Assembly (NCBI GenBank): GCA_002215645.1
Contig: NGFI01000012.1
Span: forward strand, 1-64,000
From: Gemmatimonadetes bacterium 2013_60CM_65_52
GTDB taxonomy: Bacteria > Gemmatimonadota > Gemmatimonadetes > Gemmatimonadales > Gemmatimonadaceae
Length of the DNA stretch: 64,000 bases
Reading direction: 5' to 3'
Shown piece by piece: positions 2,302 to 14,745 of the stretch. Within the stretch, counting starts at the first letter, position 1. Every line of letters starts with the position of its first letter. Below the pieces are notes generated by a model, which ran no database searches, had not been told where the DNA came from, and saw nothing but the letters and a program-made list of their open reading frames with translations. Both the position numbers and the translations under genes were made by a program.

Positions 2302-3552
2302 GGGTCTTCCGGGAATTGAGTGAGTGAAATAGCGTGCCCCTAGCCGTTAAACCGGGGCGTTATGGACGACCGGACGCTGTATGCGACGATCTTAGGGCTG
2401 GATGCGCCGCGGAACGTGGCGCGGGTAGAGCTCAGGCGATCAAGCACGTCGTGCACGTGTGGGTAGTGGCCCGACCGGGGACACCTCTTGTCTGCCCCGA
2501 ATGCGGCGAGGCCGGCCCAATCCATGATCATACGCAACGGAGCTGGCGGCATCTGGACACCTGCTAGTTCCAGACGCTGCTCCACACGGCCGTGCCGCGC
2601 GTCAGCGGCTCAACGCATGGCGTGCGGACGACGCTGGTGCCTTGAGCCGAGCGGCGGTCCCACTTTACCCTCCCCTTTGAGCGACTGCCGATTGCGTGGC
2701 TGAAAGAGGCCACTCCGCTCGCGGTGGCGCGCCCGCTCGGCCTCACGTGGGAGGAGGTGAAATGGCATCGTCGAGCGCGCCGTCCGTCGCGGGCTCGCGC
2801 GCCGCCCGAGTGTCGCCGGCCGACGACTCGGGATCGATGAGCACTCGTATCTCAAACGCTTCCAGCTCGTGACGATGGTCATGGATCTCGACGAACAGAC
2901 GGTGCTCCACGTGGCCGATGATGCGATGGCCATGTGGGAATCCTACACAAAGACCGTGCGGCGTACGTGCCGAACGCCGATGCGAAGATCGTGTTCAATC
3001 ACTACCACGTGATGCGGTGTGATGGAAACGATGGACTAGGTGTGCCGGACGGAACAGCAGGCGCCCAGGCAGCGCAGCGATCGGCGACTCACCGGCGCCA
3101 AGTTTCTCAGACGCAAGACGCGAGGAGAGTCCGTCACGGCCGATCAACGACGTGCCTTCGCGCGGTTGCGCCAGAGCACGCTCACGTCGGCGCGCGCGTG
3201 CGCGACGAAAGTAGCGCTGCGCCGTCTCTGGGAGTTTCGCTCCATTCCGCGAGCCCAGCCTTCTTCGCACACTGGCTCTAGGCCAATGCGCTCGCGCCTC
3301 GCGCCCACGCGCTATCTCGCCAAGACCCTGCGCCGTCAGACGACACATCCTGACCTACCTGACGCATTGGATCACCAACGTCGTGACTGAAGGCCTCAAC
3401 GCCAAGCTCCAGTGGGTCAAGTACCCCTCCCGCAGCCCTCTGCGCTCCCGAGCGCTTCAAGCTGGTCATCTACCTCCACCGCGACGGCCTCGATCTGGAG
3501 CCGCGCGCTGAGAAAATCTTAAGCCTCAACCTGCTCTAGAGCCGGACGACCC
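2302..3552 (+). mobile_element. decayed ISL3-family insertion sequence
   Basis: The element is bounded by imperfect inverted repeats: GGGTCTTCCGGG at 2302-2313 and its counterpart GCCGGACGACCC at 3541-3552, which match at 10 of 12 positions. Between them lies a transposase broken into several frames. No convincing 8-base target duplication flanks the ends. It marks the left border of the A/T-richer island. Confidence 0.7.
2361..3540 (+). pseudogene. ISL3-family transposase, multiply frameshifted
   Basis: Recognisable ISL3 pieces appear in order but in different frames: the start MDDRTLYATILGLDAP (2361), the zinc-binding N-terminal region with CPECGEAGPIHDH and SWRHLDTC, the helix-turn-helix piece WLKEATPLAVARPLGLTWEEVKWH, the DDE core piece NADAKIVFNHYHVMR, and the C-terminal ITNVVTEGLNAKLQWVKY followed by a GLDLEP-like piece. 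Internal stops and shifts separate them, so no active transposase can be made. The order and spacing match a full-length element, so this is decay and not a chance fragment. Confidence 0.75.
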
Positions 3553-3764
3553 AACTCCTATAAGCATTCGACCAGGCTGAGAGTCCCCTCGGCGCTGTCA
3601 GTGCCGAGCGTATAGGGGCCGTGCATGGAATGCTATTTACAGAGGCTCCGTTGCCGCCCTACGCCGCCTCTGGCGCGGCGTCAGCTTTAGGCGCACCTTG
3701 ATTGTATGGCTAGCAGCGGCGCCGCTGTAGTCCAACGACTTTCTATGGCCGCCTGCGATAGACC

Positions 3765-4400
3765 ATGTGTCTCAAGGTACTTTACGTAGTAGACGAGCCA
3801 TCGCTTGTTAGCGACGCCCTCCATCTCCTACTGAACACGCACACACACTTCATCGTACGTCGTTGCGGTATTGGAGAGGTTGTATGGGCGACCGCAGCTC
3901 TTAAGGCCGATGTATTGCTGCTCAGCGCACACAGCGGTCGCAAAGCGGTCGCCGCTTTGGTCCGCGAGGTAATAGAGTGCGCGTCGGGACCTCCTCTCGT
4001 CGTACTTCGCACGCGACCTACCTGGAGCGAAGAGAACGCCCTGCGAGCAGCGGGCGCTGCTGCGGTGGTAGGTACAGAGGCAAGCTTCACGCATCTCTTG
4101 CGGACGTTTGGGGATGTAACGGCAAGCCCAAGCGCTCACACTTCGCAGGTGGTGGTCGGCGCCATATGCCGGAACCCGCGGACGCCGAATGAGAAAGGCG
4201 AGCCTACACACCGTGCGCTAACTGCGCGTGAGTATGAGGTGGAGCAACTCATCGCACAAGGCTTATCGAATAAGGCAATCGGTCGTCAGCTATCGATTGC
4301 TACCCACACAGTGCGCGCACACATCCGGCATATCATGTCAAAGATCGGTGTGCGCACACGAGTGCAAATCGCGGTTCATACACTAACGTGCGAGCGCTGA
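3765..4400 (+). CDS. LuxR-type regulator with a degenerate receiver domain
   Basis: The 211-residue protein has the layout of a NarL/FixJ response regulator. Residues 1-125 resemble a receiver domain (VLYVVDEPSLVSDALHLLL keeps an acidic pair at 10-11). Residues about 149-205 form a LuxR helix-turn-helix (LTAREYEVEQLIAQGLSNKAIG, then IATHTVRAHIRHIMSKIG). The strand that normally carries the phosphorylated Asp reads ADVLLLSAHSG, so the phosphoacceptor is replaced, by Ser54 or nearby, and the conserved Lys is not evident. Phosphorylation control is therefore doubtful; it may act constitutively or bind a ligand. It is the first gene of the co-directional cluster and sits 170 bases before the small-peptide gene, so it is the obvious candidate regulator. 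Confidence 0.85.
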   Translation: MCLKVLYVVDEPSLVSDALHLLLNTHTHFIVRRCGIGEVVWATAALKADVLLLSAHSGRKAVAALVREVIECASGPPLVVLRTRPTWSEENALRAAGAAAVVGTEASFTHLLRTFGDVTASPSAHTSQVVVGAICRNPRTPNEKGEPTHRALTAREYEVEQLIAQGLSNKAIGRQLSIATHTVRAHIRHIMSKIGVRTRVQIAVHTLTCER

Positions 4401-4461
4401 CAAGTATATATGCCGAGCGCAGTCCTAGGCGCTGCACCCCGCTCTTCTGGTCTCGTCACAC

Positions 4462-4478
4462 GGCTATGCGACATAGCC
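4462..4478. promoter_or_regulatory. perfect inverted repeat upstream of the peptide gene
   Basis: GGCTATG-CGA-CATAGCC has 7-base perfect arms and a 3-base centre, about 93 bases before the peptide ATG. No T-run follows, so it is not an obvious terminator of the LuxR gene (stop at 4400). It could be a LuxR operator or an RNA hairpin in a leader. Confidence 0.4.
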
Positions 4479-4570
4479 CACATGGCCGATAGCTGGTTCA
4501 AGGCGGCAGTGATATCGTGCACGGTTAAGGGGAGTTGTGTTGACCAACCACTTCAACAAGGACAGTAAAT

Positions 4571-4795
4571 ATGAAGCCAATCAAGAAGCGTTTCGCTCTT
4601 AGCGCCTTGAGTGTCGCAGGCGCAGTCGGGCTGGCGGCGTTTGCGCCAGTAACCAGCCAGGCTAATGGGCAAGGTCTGAAGGTCGGAGTACAGGACGCGT
4701 GTGCCGATGGCTCATGCGCTCCTTTCACGGACTACATTTGTGGCCTTAACGGCTCAAATTACCCGGATAAAGTGTTTGTACCCGCTGGTTCATAG
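4571..4795 (+). CDS. small secreted cysteine-containing peptide (candidate peptide precursor)
   Basis: This 74-residue product has a classic Sec signal peptide: basic MKPIKKR, a hydrophobic core (about 9-25), and an SQA site predicting cleavage after Ala31. The mature part would be about 43 residues, beginning NGQGLKVGV and carrying three cysteines (44, 49, 57) in the pattern CADGSC followed by YIC. A good ribosome binding site (AAGGA, about 4558-4562) precedes the ATG. The gene opens a block with a propeller lipoprotein, a signal peptidase and a TonB-receptor-like gene. The arrangement recalls Bacteroidota NVEALA-type peptides beside TolB-like propeller lipoproteins (from memory), but the NVEALA motif itself is absent. 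Function unknown; a signalling, toxin or surface peptide are all possible. Confidence 0.7.
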   Translation: MKPIKKRFALSALSVAGAVGLAAFAPVTSQANGQGLKVGVQDACADGSCAPFTDYICGLNGSNYPDKVFVPAGS

Positions 4796-4885
4796 CCATA
4801 GCGGAGGCTTCAGAACAACCAGTACGTAGATGTACCCCTGACCCGGTCGGCACCTCCCCTCCACTTTTGCCGCGTCAAACGCTGA

Positions 4886-6082
4886 ATGCGCATAGCTGCA
4901 CCTTTGTGGGCGCTTTCCGGCGCTGTCTGTATTGTTGGAGTGCTCAGCATTCTCTCCTGCCGCAATACGCCGCCAAAGAGCAACGAGCCGTATGGGAAGG
5001 GTCTTCCATACGTGAGTAGCGCTCCAACTCCTAACGTAAGGGAGGACACTCTACGTCTCGACTCCGTCTGGGCCATACCGCTGAGACCGATACGAAAGTT
5101 TGCCCTTTCGGCCAACGCGCTACGCTCGCCGACGGCCATACGCATGATTGGAAGACGATTGATTGTTCTCCAGCCCACTGCGACTCACGGGCTCTTTGTG
5201 ATCGACCCACAGGTGGGCCGCATCATTGCAACTGGTTTGCCGACGACAGACGCTCCTCGCCAGTATTTTGGCAGTATCGTCGAAGATCCCAATGACCATA
5301 AGGCCGTATGGGTCCATGACGTCTACTCCCAAAGACTCCTGCACCTCCGGCTTGCATCGCTCGCGGATGTCGGTGCCGAGCTCGAACCAGACTCCACAGT
5401 AGCTTTAGCGTTTCGAGGAGCACTCAGAACACCGTGGCCTGTGCGGTCCGGGTTTATAGCAAGCGGGTTCCTTGATCGCGGAGTACTGGTGAAGTTCGCC
5501 GCAGATGGCCGGCCTCAGCGCCTCCTGGGAGGTAGCGCGTTTGACAGCCTCGGTCTAGTTGACGACGTTCGACACCACCTAACAGTCGCCAGAATCGTTG
5601 CTCAGCCAAGCACCCAAAGGATAGCGATGGCATACTTATCATCGCCCTTTCTCGAACTTCGCAATAGCGCTGCAGCACTGCAAGCGCGCTGGTATGTCAC
5701 GCTCGGTACTAACGCGTTCACAGTGCCTAGACCTGTACGCGATGGCAGCGGTCGACTGCGCTTCGGCGCCGACTCAACGACAAGAAGCATGTTTCTCGAT
5801 ATTGCTAGCAGTCAACGCTTTGTGTATGCGCTTTACAGCGGTCATCGTCTAATTACGCGGCCGCGCGACTCGACCGCGGCCGCCTTCCGGGATGCTTCAG
5901 GGGCACTAGGCATGTTCGTAGTTGCGATGACGTGGTCGGGAGTAGTCGAACGGGTGATTTCAATCCCTGAAGGCGCATCGCGCATAGCGGTAAGTCATGA
6001 TGACCAGTACCTGTATACGGCCGGCCTCATTCGAGATTCAATCAGCGAGTATCGCCTCGCCATGCTGACCAATGTCCACTAG
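4886..6082 (+). CDS. TolB/6-bladed beta-propeller-like lipoprotein
   Basis: The 398-residue protein starts MRIAAPLWAL with a hydrophobic stretch and a possible lipobox ILSC (Cys25), so it is probably a lipoprotein. The rest is made of repeated beta-rich blocks that look like propeller blades: AIRMIGRRLIVLQP...GLFVIDP, AVWVHDVYSQRLLHLRL, SGFIASGFLDRGVLVKFAADG, RIAMAYLSSPFLELR, QRFVYALYSGHRLI, and RIAVSHDDQYLYTAGL. The FIASG...RGVLVKF block resembles the TolB-like 6-blade propeller lipoproteins of Bacteroidota. Its 3' end overlaps the signal peptidase gene by 11 bases, so the two are probably co-translated. It may bind the neighbouring peptide at the cell surface, which is inference. No enzyme motif is seen. 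Confidence 0.7.
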   Translation: MRIAAPLWALSGAVCIVGVLSILSCRNTPPKSNEPYGKGLPYVSSAPTPNVREDTLRLDSVWAIPLRPIRKFALSANALRSPTAIRMIGRRLIVLQPTATHGLFVIDPQVGRIIATGLPTTDAPRQYFGSIVEDPNDHKAVWVHDVYSQRLLHLRLASLADVGAELEPDSTVALAFRGALRTPWPVRSGFIASGFLDRGVLVKFAADGRPQRLLGGSAFDSLGLVDDVRHHLTVARIVAQPSTQRIAMAYLSSPFLELRNSAAALQARWYVTLGTNAFTVPRPVRDGSGRLRFGADSTTRSMFLDIASSQRFVYALYSGHRLITRPRDSTAAAFRDASGALGMFVVAMTWSGVVERVISIPEGASRIAVSHDDQYLYTAGLIRDSISEYRLAMLTNVH

Positions 6083-6752
6083 GCGACGCGGCCTAGCACT
6101 ACGCACCATGTCTTGGGTGGTCACGACAGTGGCGCTAGCTGCGCTCGTGCGCATGAGCGCGGTCGAGCCATACCGCATTCCAAGTAACAGCATGGAGCCA
6201 GCCTTGCTAGAAGGCGACTACGTCGTGGTTGACAAGGCGTCCATGGGACTACGGTTCTTGGAGTCACGCCTTCAGCCATATCCAACCCGCGCGTTGCGCT
6301 CAGGCGACGTAATCGTGTTCACCTCGCCCGATGACCCAGAGACGGCATACATAAAGCGAGTCACTGGCATTCCCGGGGATACCTTGGAGATGCGTAACGG
6401 AGTGCTTCTTCGTAATGCAAGGCTGCAGCGGGAAGGGTATGCTCGTAGGTCGCCGGATAAGGTTTCGGACGCGACGGACTTTCTCTGGCAGCGGCGCTAT
6501 TTGCTGCCAACGGAAGATCGTGCATCGTATCTACCCACTTCGGCCAACTGGGGCCCAATAGTCGTACCCCGCAACTCATACTTCGTGCTTGGTGACAATC
6601 GAGGCAAGTCGTTTGATAGCCGACACTGGGGATTCGTGCCGTTCTCGCGCATACGTGGGCGCGCACTGTTCATATATGGTAGTCTCGGGGGGCGAAGTGC
6701 GGGCGATAGCAGTCAGCGCCTCCGGTGGGCCAGAATAGGCATGCGCTTGTAG
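6072..6752 (+). CDS. lepB: signal peptidase I (S26 family)
   Basis: The 226-residue protein has a single N-terminal membrane anchor (about 12-30) followed by the S26 boxes in order: EPYRIPSNSMEPALLEGDYV with the catalytic Ser, SGDVIVFTSP, AYIKRVTGIPGD with the catalytic Lys, and FVLGDNRGKSFDSRHWGFVP. All key residues are present, so it should be an active periplasm-facing leader peptidase. It overlaps the propeller gene by 11 bases and sits inside the island, so it is likely an extra copy dedicated to neighbouring products such as the small peptide rather than the housekeeping enzyme. That dedication is inferred from context. Confidence 0.93.
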   Translation: MSTRRRGLALRTMSWVVTTVALAALVRMSAVEPYRIPSNSMEPALLEGDYVVVDKASMGLRFLESRLQPYPTRALRSGDVIVFTSPDDPETAYIKRVTGIPGDTLEMRNGVLLRNARLQREGYARRSPDKVSDATDFLWQRRYLLPTEDRASYLPTSANWGPIVVPRNSYFVLGDNRGKSFDSRHWGFVPFSRIRGRALFIYGSLGGRSAGDSSQRLRWARIGMRL

Positions 6753-6836
6753 GACAGCGCGCACCAAACTAGCGAGAGCTGCGAAAGCGCCTGCTGTCAA
6801 ATGGGCTGCCGGGCACCTCAATTGGCGGTTAACACT

Positions 6837-9800
6837 ATGTGGACCTTATCGTCTAAGCAGTTACCCCCTTCGGGGGCGACCACAATCTATAAATGCGTCT
6901 TGGCCCTATCGCTATGTGCCTTCGCCATGGATCTCCCCGCGCAGCAGCCAGCGCCGCACCGCAAAGATACTATTCGTGGCACGGTGACTGACGAGCGAGG
7001 GGACGCCATCAAGAATGCCTCTATCATAGTGACGCGTTCAGGTGACTTTGCGGTCTTTCAATCAACGACTGACACTTTAGGTGTGTTCTCGCTGACCATT
7101 GCTGAAGGTACCGGTGACTACCTGCTACATGTTAGCGCCATCGGCTTTCAGGCATTGCGCCGACGTGTCTCGAGTGACACCTCTGGTCGCATCGGAGATA
7201 GCGTTTTCGTACAGAATGTGCGGTTGCGCGCAGCAACGCAGAAACTAGCGACGGTGCAAGTTCAGGCGAATCGTCCAAAGCCTTCTCGGATGCCTGATTC
7301 TGGCATCGAGACAGGCGCCGCCGAAAGAACGCCTGACGCCTTTCTTGGGATGCTTACCGTTGATGCACTCGGCGACCTCGCTTCCATCGCCGCCACACAA
7401 CCAGGCGTGCTATCCGTCAACGGCGGCTATTCAGTCTTCGGGCTTGGCACCGATCAGAACCGCACGACTCTCAATGGCCTAGGCTTCACCGGAACAAGTC
7501 TACCACGCGACGCGCCAGTTCGTACTCGTGTTGCCACCTCCACTTATGATCCATCTCGCGGGGGGTTTAGCGGCGGGACCATTGCCATCGACGCGCTGCC
7601 CGGTGGCGTGTTCTCCTCGCTATACGCACACGCGTCGCTTGATGCTCCCGCCCTTCAGTATACTGACCGTATCGGCTCACAACTTGGCGGCAAGTTCACA
7701 GACCTCGACGCTAGCGTGGGCGCGCGAGGTCCGCTGGGTTATAGTGACCGCTACTTCTACAGCTATGGGGTACAGGCTGATCACCGTTCGGCCGCGACCG
7801 CATCCCTCCTCAGTGCGGAGACTGACCTTCTGCAGCACGCGGGGCTGTCTGTTGATTCCGTCCGGCGCTTTTTGAGTCTCATCACTGCACAGCAAGTGCC
7901 GTTAGGAGGTTCGGCTGCTCCGACTGTGCTTACGACTGATCAGCTGCGAGTGTTGACCCGGCTCGATTGGGCCCCCGTCAACTCTCGGACGCTAGCTCCC
8001 CCGAAAGAGACGGCTGGCCTTCTCGCCATCGGCAACGTTACGAGCATCGCGCCCTTTGCTCTCGGCCCGACGGCGACGCCTGGACATGCCGGCGAACACA
8101 CAATCTCACGGGGTCAGCTGCAAGCGGTATACTCACGGTATATCGGCAACGACTATTTATGGGAGACAAAGACTGCCGTGTCCGCTGGCCGCGATCACAG
8201 CCTACCACATCTTGCCGTTCCTGATGCTCACGTCTCTATCGCGTCGCTATTTGGTGACGCCACAGCCGGCGTCAGTACATTGCAGTTCGGTGGCAATGGA
8301 AGTCAGTCGGTAAACTCCGATCTTCGACAATGGTCGTGGGAATCACGCAGCGAGCTGCAGCTGTATGCGCCAGGCCGTAGCTCGCATAAAGTGAAGATTA
8401 CGGCAGATTATAGATTGGACGGCTTCAAGAGCATTTCAGCAAATGACGCCTACGGCTCCTTTGTCTTCACTTCGCTGGCGGACCTCGCCGCACAACAGCC
8501 GAGCAAGTACACGCGCACTCTATCGACGCCGTCACGAAACGGCGGCCTAGCAAGCGGCTTTGCGTCCATTGGCGACCTTTGGCGCGCACTGCCGTCTCTA
8601 GAAATCCTATACGGCGGCCGAGTGGAAGGAGAAAGGTACACCAGCACTCCAGCCCGGAATACCGCTGTAGAAGTCGCGTTTGAAGGCGTCCGGACCGACG
8701 CCGCGCCGAGAGGGCTTCATGTGAGTCCACGAGTGGGCTTTACGTGGATCAGGTCAGGGGCGGCGAGCAACGGAGGGATTGCAGCCAACAAGACCGGAGT
8801 TTTCAATATGGGCCCGACGAGTTATGTGCGGGGCGGCTTTGGGGAGTTTCGCAATCTTCCTTCGGCCCAGCTGCTTTCCGACGCAATGGCGTTTACGGGC
8901 CTCCCTGATGGTGCTCGCACTGTCACATGTTGGGGGGACGCGGCACCGACTCCGCAATGGCAGGACTATATCACAGACGCAGCGACGATCCCGCGCGCCT
9001 GCCAGGGGAGTGCTGCGCTGTTCACCGATGCTGCACGCGCGGTCGAACTTTTCAGTCCGAACTTTGCGCCACCTCGAAGCTGGCGTGGCAACCTTTCCTA
9101 CACATCTCAGTACCGTCGGCTGTCGTATTCCGTCGAGGGCATTTACTCATGGAACCAGAATCAGCCTGGTGTAGTGGACCTCAACTTTCGCGACACGCCA
9201 TCGTTTGTATTGCCCGGTGAGGGACGACCGATATTCGTGCCGCCAACAGCCATCGTTCAGAGCACGGGTGTCGTATCACCTGTGCCGATGCGCGTCGAGT
9301 CGGCATTTGGCAGAGTCGTGGATCATCGCTCAGATCTTACATCAGTTAGCCGGCAGGTCACGTTCACGGTCTCACCAGACTTGCTGCGGCTAACCAATTG
9401 GTATGGGGCGCTGTCGTACACCCTCGGCGATGCCCGTTCGCTATCACGCGGCTTTGACGCCTCGACGTTTGCTTCGCCGACGGTGGCCGACTGGGCGCGC
9501 TCTCCACTTGATGTGCGTCACCAGTTCCTCGCTCGCGCAGGCTATGCCGGACGTAGCGCGGCCTTCACGCTCTCGGGAACCCTTAGATCCGGGCTCCCGT
9601 TCACTCCGCTGGTGGCGGGCGACATCAATGGCGATGGCTTGGCAAACGATCGAGCCTTCGTATTCGACCCAGCGCAAGTACGCGACACCGACTTGAGGCG
9701 CGATCTACGAGCGCTGCTGAGCGGCTCCGAGGCCGCGCGCCGTTGCCTTAGTAGCCAGCTCGGTCATGCAGCAGGCGTGAATAGCTGCCAATCGCCATGG

Positions 9801-10574
9801 GTCGCTCAGCTGAATGCGGAGGTTACCCTAGTTGGGCGTGCGCTACATCTTCCCAACAGAGTAACACAGGTCGCCCTGAGCTTTGCGAATCCCCTTGCAG
9901 GAATAGATCAGCTAGTTCACGGCGCTGGCAGGCTACGCGGCTGGGGCGTGCAGGCATTTCCCGATCCAATACTATATGAGGTTCGTGGCTTCGACCCGAC
10001 AGCGCGTGCCTTCCGGTATGTCGTCAACCCGCGTTTCGGCACCACTAGTCCCTCGTTAACAACGTTTCGCGCGCCGTTTAGGGCAACGCTTGACGTGGCG
10101 CTTGATCTTGGGCGAGATGTATCTCTACAGCAGATCGAGCGCGCCTTGAAGCCCGGGCGCCGCGGTTACCCGGGACCACGCCTCTCACTCGATGAGATAA
10201 AGCAGCGCTATGCGCTGAATATCCCGGAGCCCTACGGCGCTATCGTGGCAGATCCCGATTCCTTGCTGCTCTCGAAACAACAATTCGAGAGTATTCAGGC
10301 GGCACGAGAAAAGTGGCTTGTCGCACGGGATAACTTACTTAGGGAGTTCGCGGAGTATATCGCTTCTCTTGGAGAAAGCTATGATGTGAGTCAAGCACTC
10401 GCACGTCAGGAGGATTTGATCGCGCGCGGCTACGAGATGGCGCGCGTCGATGTTCAGGCGACGCTCCCCAGTATCATGTCGCCCATTCAGCTTCAAATGG
10501 TGCCAGGCGTGGCCAGCGTGCTACTCCGCGCCAAGCCCGGTGAGGGTCCCGGGGGACGCACGTATCGCCCGTAG
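6837..10574 (+). CDS. TonB-dependent-receptor-like outer membrane protein with carboxypeptidase-regulatory-like domain
   Basis: I use the ATG at 6837, which places a signal peptide (CVLALSLCAFAMDLPAQQ) near the start; an upstream start at 6801 is possible. The 1245 residues run: signal peptide, a CarboxypepD_reg-like domain (about 43-130, DTIRGTVTDERGDAIKNASIIV...GVFSLTI), a plug-like region (about 175-265, QPGVLSVNGGYSVFGLGTDQNRTTLNG), a long beta-barrel rich in alternating aromatic strands up to about residue 1090, and then an unusual C-terminal extension of about 150 mostly helical, charged residues (SLQQIERALKPGRRG onwards). Such proteins normally import large or peptide ligands with TonB energy. 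The context suggests its ligand is linked to the small peptide. A classical TonB box was not identified. It is A/T-richer than core genes. Confidence 0.82.
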   Translation: MWTLSSKQLPPSGATTIYKCVLALSLCAFAMDLPAQQPAPHRKDTIRGTVTDERGDAIKNASIIVTRSGDFAVFQSTTDTLGVFSLTIAEGTGDYLLHVSAIGFQALRRRVSSDTSGRIGDSVFVQNVRLRAATQKLATVQVQANRPKPSRMPDSGIETGAAERTPDAFLGMLTVDALGDLASIAATQPGVLSVNGGYSVFGLGTDQNRTTLNGLGFTGTSLPRDAPVRTRVATSTYDPSRGGFSGGTIAIDALPGGVFSSLYAHASLDAPALQYTDRIGSQLGGKFTDLDASVGARGPLGYSDRYFYSYGVQADHRSAATASLLSAETDLLQHAGLSVDSVRRFLSLITAQQVPLGGSAAPTVLTTDQLRVLTRLDWAPVNSRTLAPPKETAGLLAIGNVTSIAPFALGPTATPGHAGEHTISRGQLQAVYSRYIGNDYLWETKTAVSAGRDHSLPHLAVPDAHVSIASLFGDATAGVSTLQFGGNGSQSVNSDLRQWSWESRSELQLYAPGRSSHKVKITADYRLDGFKSISANDAYGSFVFTSLADLAAQQPSKYTRTLSTPSRNGGLASGFASIGDLWRALPSLEILYGGRVEGERYTSTPARNTAVEVAFEGVRTDAAPRGLHVSPRVGFTWIRSGAASNGGIAANKTGVFNMGPTSYVRGGFGEFRNLPSAQLLSDAMAFTGLPDGARTVTCWGDAAPTPQWQDYITDAATIPRACQGSAALFTDAARAVELFSPNFAPPRSWRGNLSYTSQYRRLSYSVEGIYSWNQNQPGVVDLNFRDTPSFVLPGEGRPIFVPPTAIVQSTGVVSPVPMRVESAFGRVVDHRSDLTSVSRQVTFTVSPDLLRLTNWYGALSYTLGDARSLSRGFDASTFASPTVADWARSPLDVRHQFLARAGYAGRSAAFTLSGTLRSGLPFTPLVAGDINGDGLANDRAFVFDPAQVRDTDLRRDLRALLSGSEAARRCLSSQLGHAAGVNSCQSPWVAQLNAEVTLVGRALHLPNRVTQVALSFANPLAGIDQLVHGAGRLRGWGVQAFPDPILYEVRGFDPTARAFRYVVNPRFGTTSPSLTTFRAPFRATLDVALDLGRDVSLQQIERALKPGRRGYPGPRLSLDEIKQRYALNIPEPYGAIVADPDSLLLSKQQFESIQAAREKWLVARDNLLREFAEYIASLGESYDVSQALARQEDLIARGYEMARVDVQATLPSIMSPIQLQMVPGVASVLLRAKPGEGPGGRTYRP

Positions 10575-10639: not shown

Positions 10640-11863
10640 ATGCGATTGTTCGAACAACTTGGAACCGACATTGATGAGCGATGGAAAGCGACCGACTTTG
10701 ACACAAGGGCGTTTCCTGCGATTGCATCAGAAGCCCTCGAAGGTAGCCAGGCGATTGCGGATCTTGACGCATTCGATGTCGTGCGATGGGTACTAGACTC
10801 CGACGAACTCCCGCCCCAGCGTAATATCGAGTCGATGTTTGGCGAGCCTCCTGTCCAGGTCTATGATCACCCTAAATTCGTCATCCAAGTGCTGCACTGG
10901 CTTGATGGCACTACGGCAATCCATCAGCACAGTTTCAACGGCGCTTTCCATGTACTAGCGGGGTCCAGTGTACATTCTCTATTTCAGTTTACCGAAACAC
11001 GGCGTGTCAATACGGCAGTGCTTCTTGGTGATGTTACGCTGATGAAAGCCGAAATCTTGGAGCGGGGCGCGACGCGGCCCATTCTTCACGGTAATGCTTT
11101 AATCCACTCTCTGTTTCATCTAGAGCGCCCGTCTGTTACGGTGGTGGTGCGTACAGTATCGCAGGCGAACGATGTGCCGCAGTATCAATATATCCGCCCT
11201 GGTATCGCCTTCGATTCATTCTATAAGCCACAGTTAGTGCGGCGGCGTATTCAAGCTCTGACACTGTTCTCACAGTCAGGACACTGCGACTACAAGGATC
11301 TGTTGCAGGATACGCTCGCGCGCGCCGACGAGTTCACGTTCTTGCAGGTGGCAATCGCTTCGCTTCAGCACATGACAGTGCCCGATCTTGAAAGGCGGAT
11401 ACGTGAGGCCGGCAGGGCTGATGAGGCATTTGTTGACGGAGTCTGCGCTGCGCTGCACGGATTGGCTCGTGAGAGTCAGATCGTCCGCTTGCGAGGTCAC
11501 TATCACACGCCGGATCAACGCTTCTTTCTCGCCCTCCTCATGTCCTTTCGCAGCGCCGGTGAGATGTGGCCTTTGATCCGCGCGCGCTACCCAGATGCAG
11601 ATCCCGAGGTCCTCGTAATGAGGTGGCTAAAGGAGCTACGTGGAGCCACTTACTCAACGCCTTTTAGCGATGTCGCGTTCGATGATGCTACGGAAGATGT
11701 GGTACGGCTGATGCTGGGCGGCACGCCGATAGATGAAGTTCACAACTCACTACGGCGGGAGTTTGACGAGGCTGACGTCGACGCTCATTTCGCGACAGTA
11801 CTGCAGATTCGGGAGGCGCTTCAGGCGTCGATCTTTAGCCCAGTCTTCACTATGAGTGCGTAG
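10640..11863 (+). CDS. cysteine-dioxygenase-like cupin protein with a long helical C-terminal region
   Basis: The ATG at 10640 has an AAGGA ribosome binding site 7-8 bases upstream and gives 407 residues. Residues about 78-172 look like a cupin barrel of the cysteine-dioxygenase type: GTTAIHQHSFNGAFHVLAGSS supplies the HxH pair (His95, His97), and LIHSLFHLERPSVTVVVR supplies a third His (156 or 160). The usual Glu of cupin motif 1 is missing, as in thiol dioxygenases. Residues about 195-407 are helical, with no family I can name. There is no signal peptide, so it should be cytoplasmic. As last gene of the cluster it could oxidise or hydroxylate a thiol or a peptide, possibly the Cys-bearing precursor. 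Metal binding and substrate are inferred. Confidence 0.6.
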   Translation: MRLFEQLGTDIDERWKATDFDTRAFPAIASEALEGSQAIADLDAFDVVRWVLDSDELPPQRNIESMFGEPPVQVYDHPKFVIQVLHWLDGTTAIHQHSFNGAFHVLAGSSVHSLFQFTETRRVNTAVLLGDVTLMKAEILERGATRPILHGNALIHSLFHLERPSVTVVVRTVSQANDVPQYQYIRPGIAFDSFYKPQLVRRRIQALTLFSQSGHCDYKDLLQDTLARADEFTFLQVAIASLQHMTVPDLERRIREAGRADEAFVDGVCAALHGLARESQIVRLRGHYHTPDQRFFLALLMSFRSAGEMWPLIRARYPDADPEVLVMRWLKELRGATYSTPFSDVAFDDATEDVVRLMLGGTPIDEVHNSLRREFDEADVDAHFATVLQIREALQASIFSPVFTMSA

Positions 11864-11994: not shown

Positions 11995-12350
11995 ATGGTC
12001 AACCAGAAACGACCGCGCCGTGGGTTCAGTGCGGAGTGTAAGCTGGAAGCGGTGCGACGAATCCAGGAGCGACGGTCGAGCGGGATCAGTCTCGCGCAAA
12101 TCGGCAGAGAGGTTGGTGTAACGCCGGCTCTCCTGCGCGCGTGGACCCGACAGGCCGAAGCGCGCGTTGGCGCGGCGCCGCTGGATGTCTTTCTCAGGTC
12201 AGGGTCGATTGCGCGCTGAGCAAGAGGAGCTGGGTCGGCTGCAACGAGAGAACACGCGGCTTCAGCAGGAGAATGCATTCCTAAAACGCGTGGCGGCGTA
12301 CTTCGCGAGGGAGTTGTGCAAGTACACCAAATATCCCGCAGCTCGTGAAC
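11995..12350 (+). pseudogene. IS3-family transposase orfA, frameshifted
   Basis: The first frame (11995-12219) encodes the helix-turn-helix part: RRGFSAECKLEAVRRIQE...SLAQIGREVGVTPALLRAWTRQ. Near 12190-12215 the reading moves to the next frame, which continues with the expected leucine-zipper end RAEQEELGRLQRENTRLQQ and NAFLKRVAAYFARE. One frameshift therefore breaks a normal OrfA. The usual programmed frameshift of IS3 lies between orfA and orfB, not here, so this is decay. Confidence 0.75.
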
Positions 12351-12382
12351 AGCCTAATTCCCGCACGCGCTGTTCCGCCTTT

Positions 12383-13217
12383 CTATGGATGTGGGGCACC
12401 TCCCGTGTCAGGCCGTGGGGTCAAGGACGACTCGGGCCGCGGCCCGAGGAGCGCCCCGAGCTCACGAAGCCGATAGCTCCGTCCATCGATATGCAGCACC
12501 TGGACGTGATGAAGGAGCCGGTCCAGGATCGCGGTCGTCAGAATCTCATCATCGGCAAAGACCGCTGGCCAGTCACGCACATGCTTGTTCGACGTGAGCA
12601 CGATGCTGCCGCGCTCGTAGCGGGCGGAGACCAGTCGAAAGAACAAGTTCGCCTCACTCCGATCGAGCGGCCGAAAGCCGACCTCGTCGATGATCAAGAG
12701 TCCCGAGTTGAAGTACCGCTTGGCGCGGAGTCGGGCGGGCGGCACCGCGGCATCGGCGCGTCACACGTGCATCAGATCATCAAGCACGAAGTGCGTGACG
12801 GAGGAGCCGTTCTTGATCGCCTTCACCCCAAGCGCTGCCGCGAGATGACTCTTCCCCACACCCGGTGGCCCGAGAAAGAGCACGTTGGTCTTTTCGCGGA
12901 TGAAGCTGCAGGTCGCGAGCGCCTCGATCTGCCGCCGGTCCACACGCGGCTGGAAGCTCCAGTCGAAGTCTTCGAGCATCTTTCCCGACGGTAAGCCCGA
13001 GAGCTTGAGCATCGTCGTGACGCGACGCTCGTCCTTGCGATCGAGCTCGCCGCTCAAGACCAGCTCCAGAAAACTCACCGGTGAGAGCTGTTCGCGGCTC
13101 GCTTGCTCGACGAGTTCCGCCAGGCAGCTTGCCGGATAGTCGGAGCCCTAACGCGCTGAGCTTCGCCGCCACCGGGTCGAGGGTGACAATCGGCACCTTC
13201 TTCGGAACGGGACTCAT
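12383..13217 (-). pseudogene. istB: IS21-family helper ATPase IstB, frameshifted
   Basis: Reading from the ATG at 13217 (MSPVPKKVPIVTLDPVAAK), the IstB sequence is complete but split over frames. The N-terminal part shifts near 13080-13140 into SFLELVLSGELDRKDERRVT with Walker A FLGPPGVGKSHLAAALG. A second shift near 12750 leads to the C-terminal half with Walker B GLLIIDEVGF and SIVLTSNKHVRDWPAVFADD. Two frameshifts make it inactive. It lies antisense to and inside the IS3 element. The preceding istA fragment overlaps its ATG by ATGA, the normal istA-istB junction. Confidence 0.8.
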
Positions 13218-13382
13218 CGGCACGCCTCCTCGACCAGAGCGATGTATACACTGAGGGGACGCGTCACCGCACTGGGGGCCGGCCGGCCCGAGATCCCCGC
13301 GAGTTGCAGTTGCGCGCGACGTCCGAGCGGTGTCGGTGCACGGACCGCCACCGTGGACTCGCCCTCATAGTGCGACGAGACC
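13214..13382 (-). pseudogene. istA: C-terminal fragment of IS21 transposase IstA
   Basis: A short minus-strand frame reads SSHYEGESTVAVRAPTPLGR, then RRAQLQLAGI and ALVEEACR with a TGA at 13214-13216 overlapping the istB ATG. This matches the end of IstA proteins and the coupled istA-istB arrangement. The catalytic part of IstA is gone; the sequence joins IS3 orfB territory upstream. Too short to be functional. Confidence 0.6.
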
Positions 13383-13473
13383 AAGACCAGACGGGCGGCG
13401 GTGTATCGCGCGTGACGCGCCCACCGTCGTCAAGCGAGTGCGGGAATTTGGGTGTTCTTCTACAGGAGTCGCG

Positions 13474-14103
13474 ATGAGCGACAAGTACGCTGCGATTGCG
13501 GCCGATCGGGAGCGCTATCCGGTCCGCCTCATGTGCGCGGCACTCGGCGTCAGTGAAAGTGGCTTCTATGCGGTGCAGGAGCGCGCGCCCTGTGCGCGAA
13601 CGGCACGCAATGAAGCGCTGCGCCTGGCGGTGCGGACGGTGTTCACGACGACACGTGGCCGCTACGGATCGCCGCGTATTCACGATGAGCTCAGCGAGGA
13701 CGGTCTCGTTCGCGCGGCCACCGCGCCGCTCCGTCCGCACGACCGATTCCGCTCACGGCGATCCCATCGCGCCGAACGTGTTAGCTCGTGACTTCCTGGT
13801 TCGGGACGACTGTGCGATGGATGCGGCGTCGGTCAGCGACATCACCTACATCTCGACCCGCGAAGGGTTCCTGTGTCTCGCCGTGTCTTTGGATGTCGCG
13901 AACCGAGGGGTCGTGCGACGGGGCATGGACGACACGCCCGAAACGGCGCTACCCTTGGCCGCCCTAGGCATGGCGATCCTCCAGCGACAACCGGCGCCAT
14001 TCACCATTCGGACCGTGAAAGCCAATACGCAAGCCGCGACTACCGCGCCTTGCTCGACGCCCATGGCTTTCGGCTCAGCATGAGCGGCAAGGGAGATTGT
14101 TGG
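13474..14103 (+). pseudogene. IS3-family transposase orfB, frameshifted and truncated
   Basis: The start MSDKYAAIAADRERYPVRLM follows a ribosome-binding-like CAGGAG and continues through RGRYGSPRIHDEL, typical of OrfB. After about 13700 the frame breaks. The integrase core then appears in other frames: SDITYISTREGFLCLAVSLD, DDTPETALPLAALGMAIL, and IHHSDRESQYASRDYRALLD. The match ends at SGKGDCW (14103), just before the usual DN, where IS630 sequence takes over. At least two frameshifts plus a 3' truncation. Confidence 0.75.
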
Positions 14104-14745
14104 GTTCAAGCTCTCGACCGATCCGCTCTTTGTCGAGAAGGAATGTGATGTCGTCGGCGTCTATCTGAATCCCCCGAGAACGCCGTCGTGCTGCGTGTTG
14201 ATGAGAAGAGCTGGATCGGGGCGATCGAGCGCAAGCAGCCCAACTTGCCGTTGGGATCGGCTATGTCGACGGCATCACGCACGACTATCCGACATGGGAC
14301 GACCACGTTATTCGCCGCGGTCGACATTCAGAGTGGCGAGGTCCTCACCCAGTGCAAGTGTCGGCATCAAGAGTTCCTCAGCTTCCTCGAGCACATCAAC
14401 GCCAGCGTCCCTGCGCGGTTTGACGTTCATCTCGTGCTGGACAACTACGCGGCGCACAAGCATGCCAACGTGAAAGCATGGCTGGCCCGTCAACCGCGAT
14501 TGCACCTGCACTGCACGCCCACCTACGCCTCGTGGCTCAATCAGGTGGAGCGCTGGTTCGGCCTCATCACGCAGCGCGCCATCCGCCGTAGCTTGTTCCC
14601 ACGGTTCGTGAGCTGATCGCAGCATCGAGTCGTTCATCACCCCCTAAACGCCGCCGCATGCCTGTTTACCTGGACCGCCACTGCCGACTCGATCTTCGCC
14701 AGAGTAGAGCGACTTGCGAAAGCAATTAACGGGACATCACACTAG
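14104..14745 (+). pseudogene. IS630-family transposase, 5'-truncated and frameshifted
   Basis: The sequence begins mid-protein with FKLSTDPLFVEKECDVVGVY, moves frame to VVLRVDEKSWIGAIERKQPN, and again to TIRHGTTTLFAAVDIQSGEVL...VHLVLDNYAAHKH...THEAD-like PTYASWLNQVERWFGL (14280-14616). The C-terminus (FTWTATADSIFARVERLAKA, stop TAG 14743-14745) is in yet another frame. The DDE catalytic parts (VDEKS, LVLDNY, NQVE) are visible but split by at least three shifts. The N-terminal DNA-binding half is missing. Confidence 0.75.

Follow-up and report, generated by a model that had tools for sequence, protein, structure and literature searches.

The gene at positions 10640-11863 (+) of the 64,000-nucleotide stretch of DNA analysed here (the window) encodes a 407-residue protein that is a member of an undescribed bacterial family, separate within the known thiol-dioxygenase superfamily, and for which a thiol-dioxygenase fold and homology are near certain. 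The family is regarded as separate because searches of Pfam, NCBIfam and PDB sequences with the cupin protein gave nothing above threshold; a match to DUF6513 (E 0.02) fell under its own cut-off and was dismissed. As the best explanation we suggest, with about even confidence, a peptide-directed iron dioxygenase with three His ligands, from a family of which at least some members would tailor ribosomal peptides, where we infer the identity of the metal, the O2 chemistry and the peptide substrate.

The reading frame starts with an ATG that has AAGGA just upstream, and an in-frame TTG is also present 24 bases 5' of this ATG. It is not a chance frame, because 31 natural relatives with 30-43% identity to the protein, as well as divergent ones, retain the same residues. 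The parts of the gene are as follows:

10640..11863, + strand: whole gene, thiol-dioxygenase-fold cupin with a C-terminal helical domain, 407 residues
10640..11221, + strand: N-terminal helices and cupin barrel, residues 1-194 (VIA-align to 4qma Z 14.2, rmsd 2.6, 158 residues; to 4tlf Z 14.0)
10922..10930, + strand: H95-Q96-H97 codons, predicted Fe ligands 1 and 2 (corresponding to H89 and H91 of P. aeruginosa 3MDO)
10940..10942, + strand: G101 codon, at the position of 3MDO G95 and CDO Cys93
10973..10975, + strand: H112 codon, family-specific His (36/46)
11105..11107, + strand: H156 codon, predicted Fe ligand 3 (corresponding to H142 of 3MDO; 46/46, partly by construction, see below)
11117..11119, + strand: H160 codon, family-specific His (42/46, likewise)
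11138..11152, + strand: T167, V169 and R171 codons, at the 3MDO Ser155-His157-Tyr159 (SHY) positions (motif from PMC10966181)
11222..11860, + strand: all-helical C-terminal domain, residues 195-407, with R285 and R294-FF-LALL conserved and no PDB match

An AlphaFold2 model built from 32 natural sequences has a mean pLDDT of 91.3 and a pTM of 0.88. The best-ranked Foldseek matches of this model in the PDB are thiol dioxygenases (B. subtilis CDO, 3MDO, ADO, and the mercaptosuccinate and ergothioneine dioxygenases), with hydroquinone dioxygenase also among the matches. Beyond 4qma and the P. aeruginosa thiol dioxygenase (4tlf), VIA-align gave Z scores of about 13 for CDO, 11 for PCO4 and 10 for ADO; at Z 14.2-13 the alignments cover 158-170 residues, and the matched region of about residues 1-195 takes in the N-terminal helices. 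The protein thus shows the CDO/MDO-type cupin fold of the superfamily. The initial annotation had read a cysteine-dioxygenase-like cupin from the letters, and structure prediction with fold comparison, its proposed check, returned a cupin of the thiol-dioxygenase type. Residues 198-403 are helical in the confident model, and the region 196-407 also gives a confident fold when modelled alone. Compared on its own with solved structures, this domain of about 210 residues found no convincing match (Foldseek E above 0.5, best Z 6.7), the Z of 6.7 being unconvincing because it lies within the noise for helical models; the earlier impression that the C-terminal region is foreign to known thiol dioxygenases was borne out.

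With the protein alone as query, no family members were found in near relatives, in the phylum, on plasmids, in viral contigs or in GTDB genomes. Short matches to the helical part in a single-protein search (E 0.001-0.1) were judged to be chance, because a profile of 32 sequences found its own genome only among 298 of the window's phylum, where the window copy is the sole member found. Relatives were recovered with a degenerate query, rows 2-5 of whose alignment were artificial, served for finding only and are absent from later alignments. The 31 natural relatives so obtained come from Myxococcota, Acidobacteriota, Verrucomicrobiota, Planctomycetota, Actinomycetota and Gammaproteobacteria, and a profile built from natural sequences added further members, including divergent paralogues. 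In one case (L115, 4205-7775, genome G431) three divergent cupin paralogues stand in tandem beside Lant_dehydr_C and a 652-residue protein without a Pfam match. In the family tree the window copy is unplaced; the shortest paths from it lead to members from Acidobacteriota and Myxococcota.

Alignment of the family profile with ten bacterial CDO/3MDO sequences (hhalign, P 6.5e-7) places H95, H97 and H156 in the same columns as H89, H91 and H142 of 3MDO, and G101 with G95. Among 46 members, H95 is found in 43, H97 in 45, R171 in 41 and H112 in 36; the corresponding values for H156 (46) and H160 (42) are to be read with the search pattern IH[SAT]LFH in mind, which makes the invariance of these two residues in the first 31 relatives partly a matter of construction. 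Because those relatives were found via this motif, a fair test of ligand conservation has to use the members found by profile, most of which retain the His ligands. We agree with the initial annotation, which had located H95-Q-H97, H156 and H160 correctly and had likened the His set to the metal site of thiol dioxygenases. Judged by the alignment, the three residues would cluster at one site, and a 3-His metal site is likely. The annotation had also noted the absence of a motif-1 Glu, and residue 101, its expected place, is indeed Gly, as it is in 44/46 members, so that there is no Cys at this position for a Cys-Tyr crosslink.

The surroundings of the predicted site differ from those of the characterized enzymes. 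The SHY motif is the mark of small-molecule thiol dioxygenases (PMC10966181), and in ADO and PCO it is replaced by a hydrophobic-Asp-Leu sequence (PMC10966181, PMC8503633). In the profile alignment Ser155, His157 and Tyr159 of 3MDO fall on T167, V169 and R171, so the motif of the CDO_I enzymes is lacking; position 169 is Val in 42/46 members, with no Asp among the listed residues, and the ADO/PCO pattern is likewise missing. Judged by sequence, the T-V-R pattern is of neither the CDO/MDO nor the ADO/PCO type. No conserved Arg of the family aligns with the substrate-binding Arg of the known enzymes (R60 of CDO or R168 of MDO); R171 may act as a stand-in, at a point where the alignment is uncertain.

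The link to peptides comes from the neighbourhoods of the relatives, in which a gene was counted only if it had a Pfam match or clear peptide features, as greedy ORF calling in high-GC loci yields spurious genes. PqqD lies within 5 kb of the cupin in 5/28 genomes (0.14 expected, P 8e-8). Lant_dehydr_C (LanB; PF14028) has nine copies across 35 genomes; the distance to a family member is no more than 5 kb for four of them, where 0.03 would be expected (P 9e-9), and no more than 10 kb for one other. By these statistics the family is encoded with RiPP machinery above chance, in five or more phyla. An operon in L054 consists of LanB-N, LanB-C, LanC-like and cupin genes, and in L117 the Lant_dehydr_C gene overlaps the cupin start; directly after this latter pair (2845-5894, genome G419) come two HpaB-like flavin monooxygenase genes. 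A PqqD-transglutaminase protein immediately precedes the cupin in L055, and the order in L056 is Asn synthase, PqqD, cupin, ABC transporter. One Pyrinomonadaceae genome (G416, that of L034) encodes 35 PqqD-like proteins.

Candidate precursor peptides were evident at several of these loci. In L052, two GG-leader peptides with Cys cores, whose C-terminal ends are GGHAEPPDGGVCSQGRHQK and GGCEPPDGGCSKNKAR, are followed by a prolyl oligopeptidase, the cupin and a C39-peptidase exporter. In L109 the TAG stop of a GG-leader peptide without core Cys overlaps the GTG start of the cupin. A candidate in L061 lies between two cupins and has a core without Cys, a conserved candidate in L058 and L059 has a Cys-free core, and a candidate in L044 ends in Cys. 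The candidate peptides appear to share a Pro-acid motif (EPPDGG, LPGDS, RPRDEF).

Under our preferred explanation the window protein would belong to the thiol-dioxygenase superfamily as a mononuclear non-haem Fe(II) enzyme, with Fe held in the barrel by H95, H97 and H156, and O2 and substrate both binding to the Fe. The pocket would be lined by H112, H160 and R171 instead of the Ser-His-Tyr network, and the helical domain would probably serve in the recognition or positioning of the substrate, or in oligomer formation. For some members at least, a ribosomal peptide would be the substrate, oxygenated as a tailoring step. That part of the family acts on peptides is plausible, the odds in our view being about even; oxidation specifically of a thiol, for which Cys sulfinic acid is one option, is a more tentative proposal, and a thiol substrate for all members is disfavoured because Cys is missing from the cores of the candidate peptides in L109, L061, L058 and L059. 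It also counts against the explanation that the window copy has no recognisable RiPP enzyme nearby, and that in a Verrucomicrobia/Planctomycetota clade the cupin stands alone, with no RiPP genes in its neighbourhood.

Such solitary genes, of which there are many in the family, would suit a dioxygenase acting on a free small-molecule thiol, for instance a mercapto acid or a derivative of cysteine, with the RiPP neighbours concerned with the supply or disposal of sulfur compounds. The closest fold matches are themselves small-molecule enzymes (3MDO, CDO, mercaptosuccinate dioxygenase), and R171 could bind a carboxylate. However, the SHY motif of such enzymes (PMC10966181) has become T-V-R, the family has an additional domain of 210 residues, and members are translationally coupled with leader-type peptides and with LanC/LanB genes, so that we regard this possibility as rather unlikely. 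Also unlikely, and a little more so, is a 3-His cupin whose target in a peptide is a residue other than a thiol, or one that performs a further type of O2-dependent peptide modification. The Cys-free cores at the four loci just named and the loss of SHY in the family speak for it, and 3-His cupins with other substrates exist, as the hydroquinone dioxygenase among the Foldseek matches illustrates; yet thiols are the substrates of the nearest fold relatives, and core Cys is present in the candidate substrates of L052 and L044.

The cupin region of the window has a GC content of 55-59%, as opposed to a window average of 63% and 64-67% for the other sampled genes, and the low-GC island of 3.7-11.9 kb is bracketed by IS remnants (ISL3, IS3, IS21 with a split istB, and DDE_3) at 2334-2564 and 11995-14613. 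The window copy is best seen as a horizontally acquired member of the family. No RiPP enzyme is recognisable beside it, its neighbours being propeller, signal peptidase, TonB and IS genes; the genome has no Lant_dehydr_C (PF14028), and its three PqqD genes are all on other contigs.

The initial annotation had proposed that the enzyme oxidises the Cys of an adjacent peptide, in the manner of N-terminal-cysteine dioxygenases. The peptide gene in question (4571-4795) has three Cys codons and shares the strand and the low-GC island of the cupin, but it lies 5.8 kb upstream rather than next to it, the three intervening genes coding for a propeller protein, a signal peptidase I and a TonB-type receptor. 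By its sequence the peptide looks Sec-exported, while no signal is evident in the cupin. Furthermore, a genome of the same taxonomic family (G034) has a homologous NDACADGSC...ICG peptide followed by a propeller-like gene, and the family profile found no cupin there. Of the window's upstream genes (peptide, propeller, signal peptidase, TonB), not one has a counterpart beside any of the cupin relatives examined. The latter absence also led us to dismiss as a family trait any coupling of the cupin to the last three of these genes. Since no cupin was found in the genome of the homologous pair and the relatives examined lack these upstream genes beside them, the pairing is highly improbable, and the Cys peptide is probably not the partner of the cupin. 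Of the original idea of peptide-thiol oxidation, then, the connection to peptides gains support across the family from the RiPP neighbours, and the window gene's own connection to the Cys peptide is lost. Chemistry on an N-terminal Cys is not indicated either, given the absence of the ADO/PCO X-Asp-Leu pattern and the several candidate peptides beside relatives that have no core Cys.

The peptide and propeller genes form a recurring module in their own right. In the window (4571-6082) a small, apparently exported ACADGSC...ICG peptide precedes a propeller lipoprotein gene, the homologous pair in G034 is L136, and in L127-L131, from a single genus of the class, propeller homologues of weaker similarity lie near other Cys-rich exported peptides. 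The run at 4571-10574, comprising the Cys peptide, the propeller lipoprotein, a dedicated signal peptidase I and a TonB-type receptor with CarboxypepD_reg, all co-directional, may form a unit that exports and takes up the Cys peptide.

A non-catalytic cupin for binding or sensing is very doubtful. A few members have lost ligands (Q95 in L112 7953-9215 and L113 3715-5001, N95/A97 in the second copy of L044, 14331-15698) and on their sequences are possibly non-catalytic paralogues, but the other members and the window copy retain all three His.

ADO and PCO are peptide-oxidising thiol dioxygenases that act as oxygen sensors in animals and plants. We tentatively suggest that the present family is a new class, made up of 3-His Fe(II) dioxygenases that descend from thiol dioxygenases and are directed at peptides. 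It would have a recognition domain of its own and an active site of a third type (T-V-R), and would introduce an undescribed oxidative modification into ribosomal peptides across many phyla. If true, a branch in bacteria whose active site differs and which has a dedicated extra domain and RiPP neighbours would widen the known substrate range of the fold. Candidate enzyme-peptide pairs are offered by L052, with its two GG-leader Cys peptides, and by L109, where the peptide overlaps the enzyme gene. A literature search, with most subscription journals outside its coverage, returned no paper that joins thiol dioxygenase, cupin and RiPP.

With the 3MDO/CDO enzymes (PF05995) the family shares the cupin fold with N-terminal helices, the HxH-13-G spacing and the three His ligands, and with 3MDO also the Gly at the Cys93 position. 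It differs from them in that the curated CDO_I model of Pfam matches 0/32 members, T-V-R stands in place of SHY with H112, H160 and R171 in addition, a helical domain of 210 residues is added, and identity is about 9-18%. ADO and PCO have in common with it the fold (VIA Z 10-11), the three His and the lack of an SHY motif, but they carry hydrophobic-Asp-Leu where the family has T-V-R and no Asp, and they are without the helical domain. As a kind, the RiPP tailoring oxygenases are resembled by the relatives of the window cupin, which occur in LanB/LanC, PqqD/lasso-like and C39-exporter neighbourhoods, whereas the window copy is set apart from them by its different neighbours.
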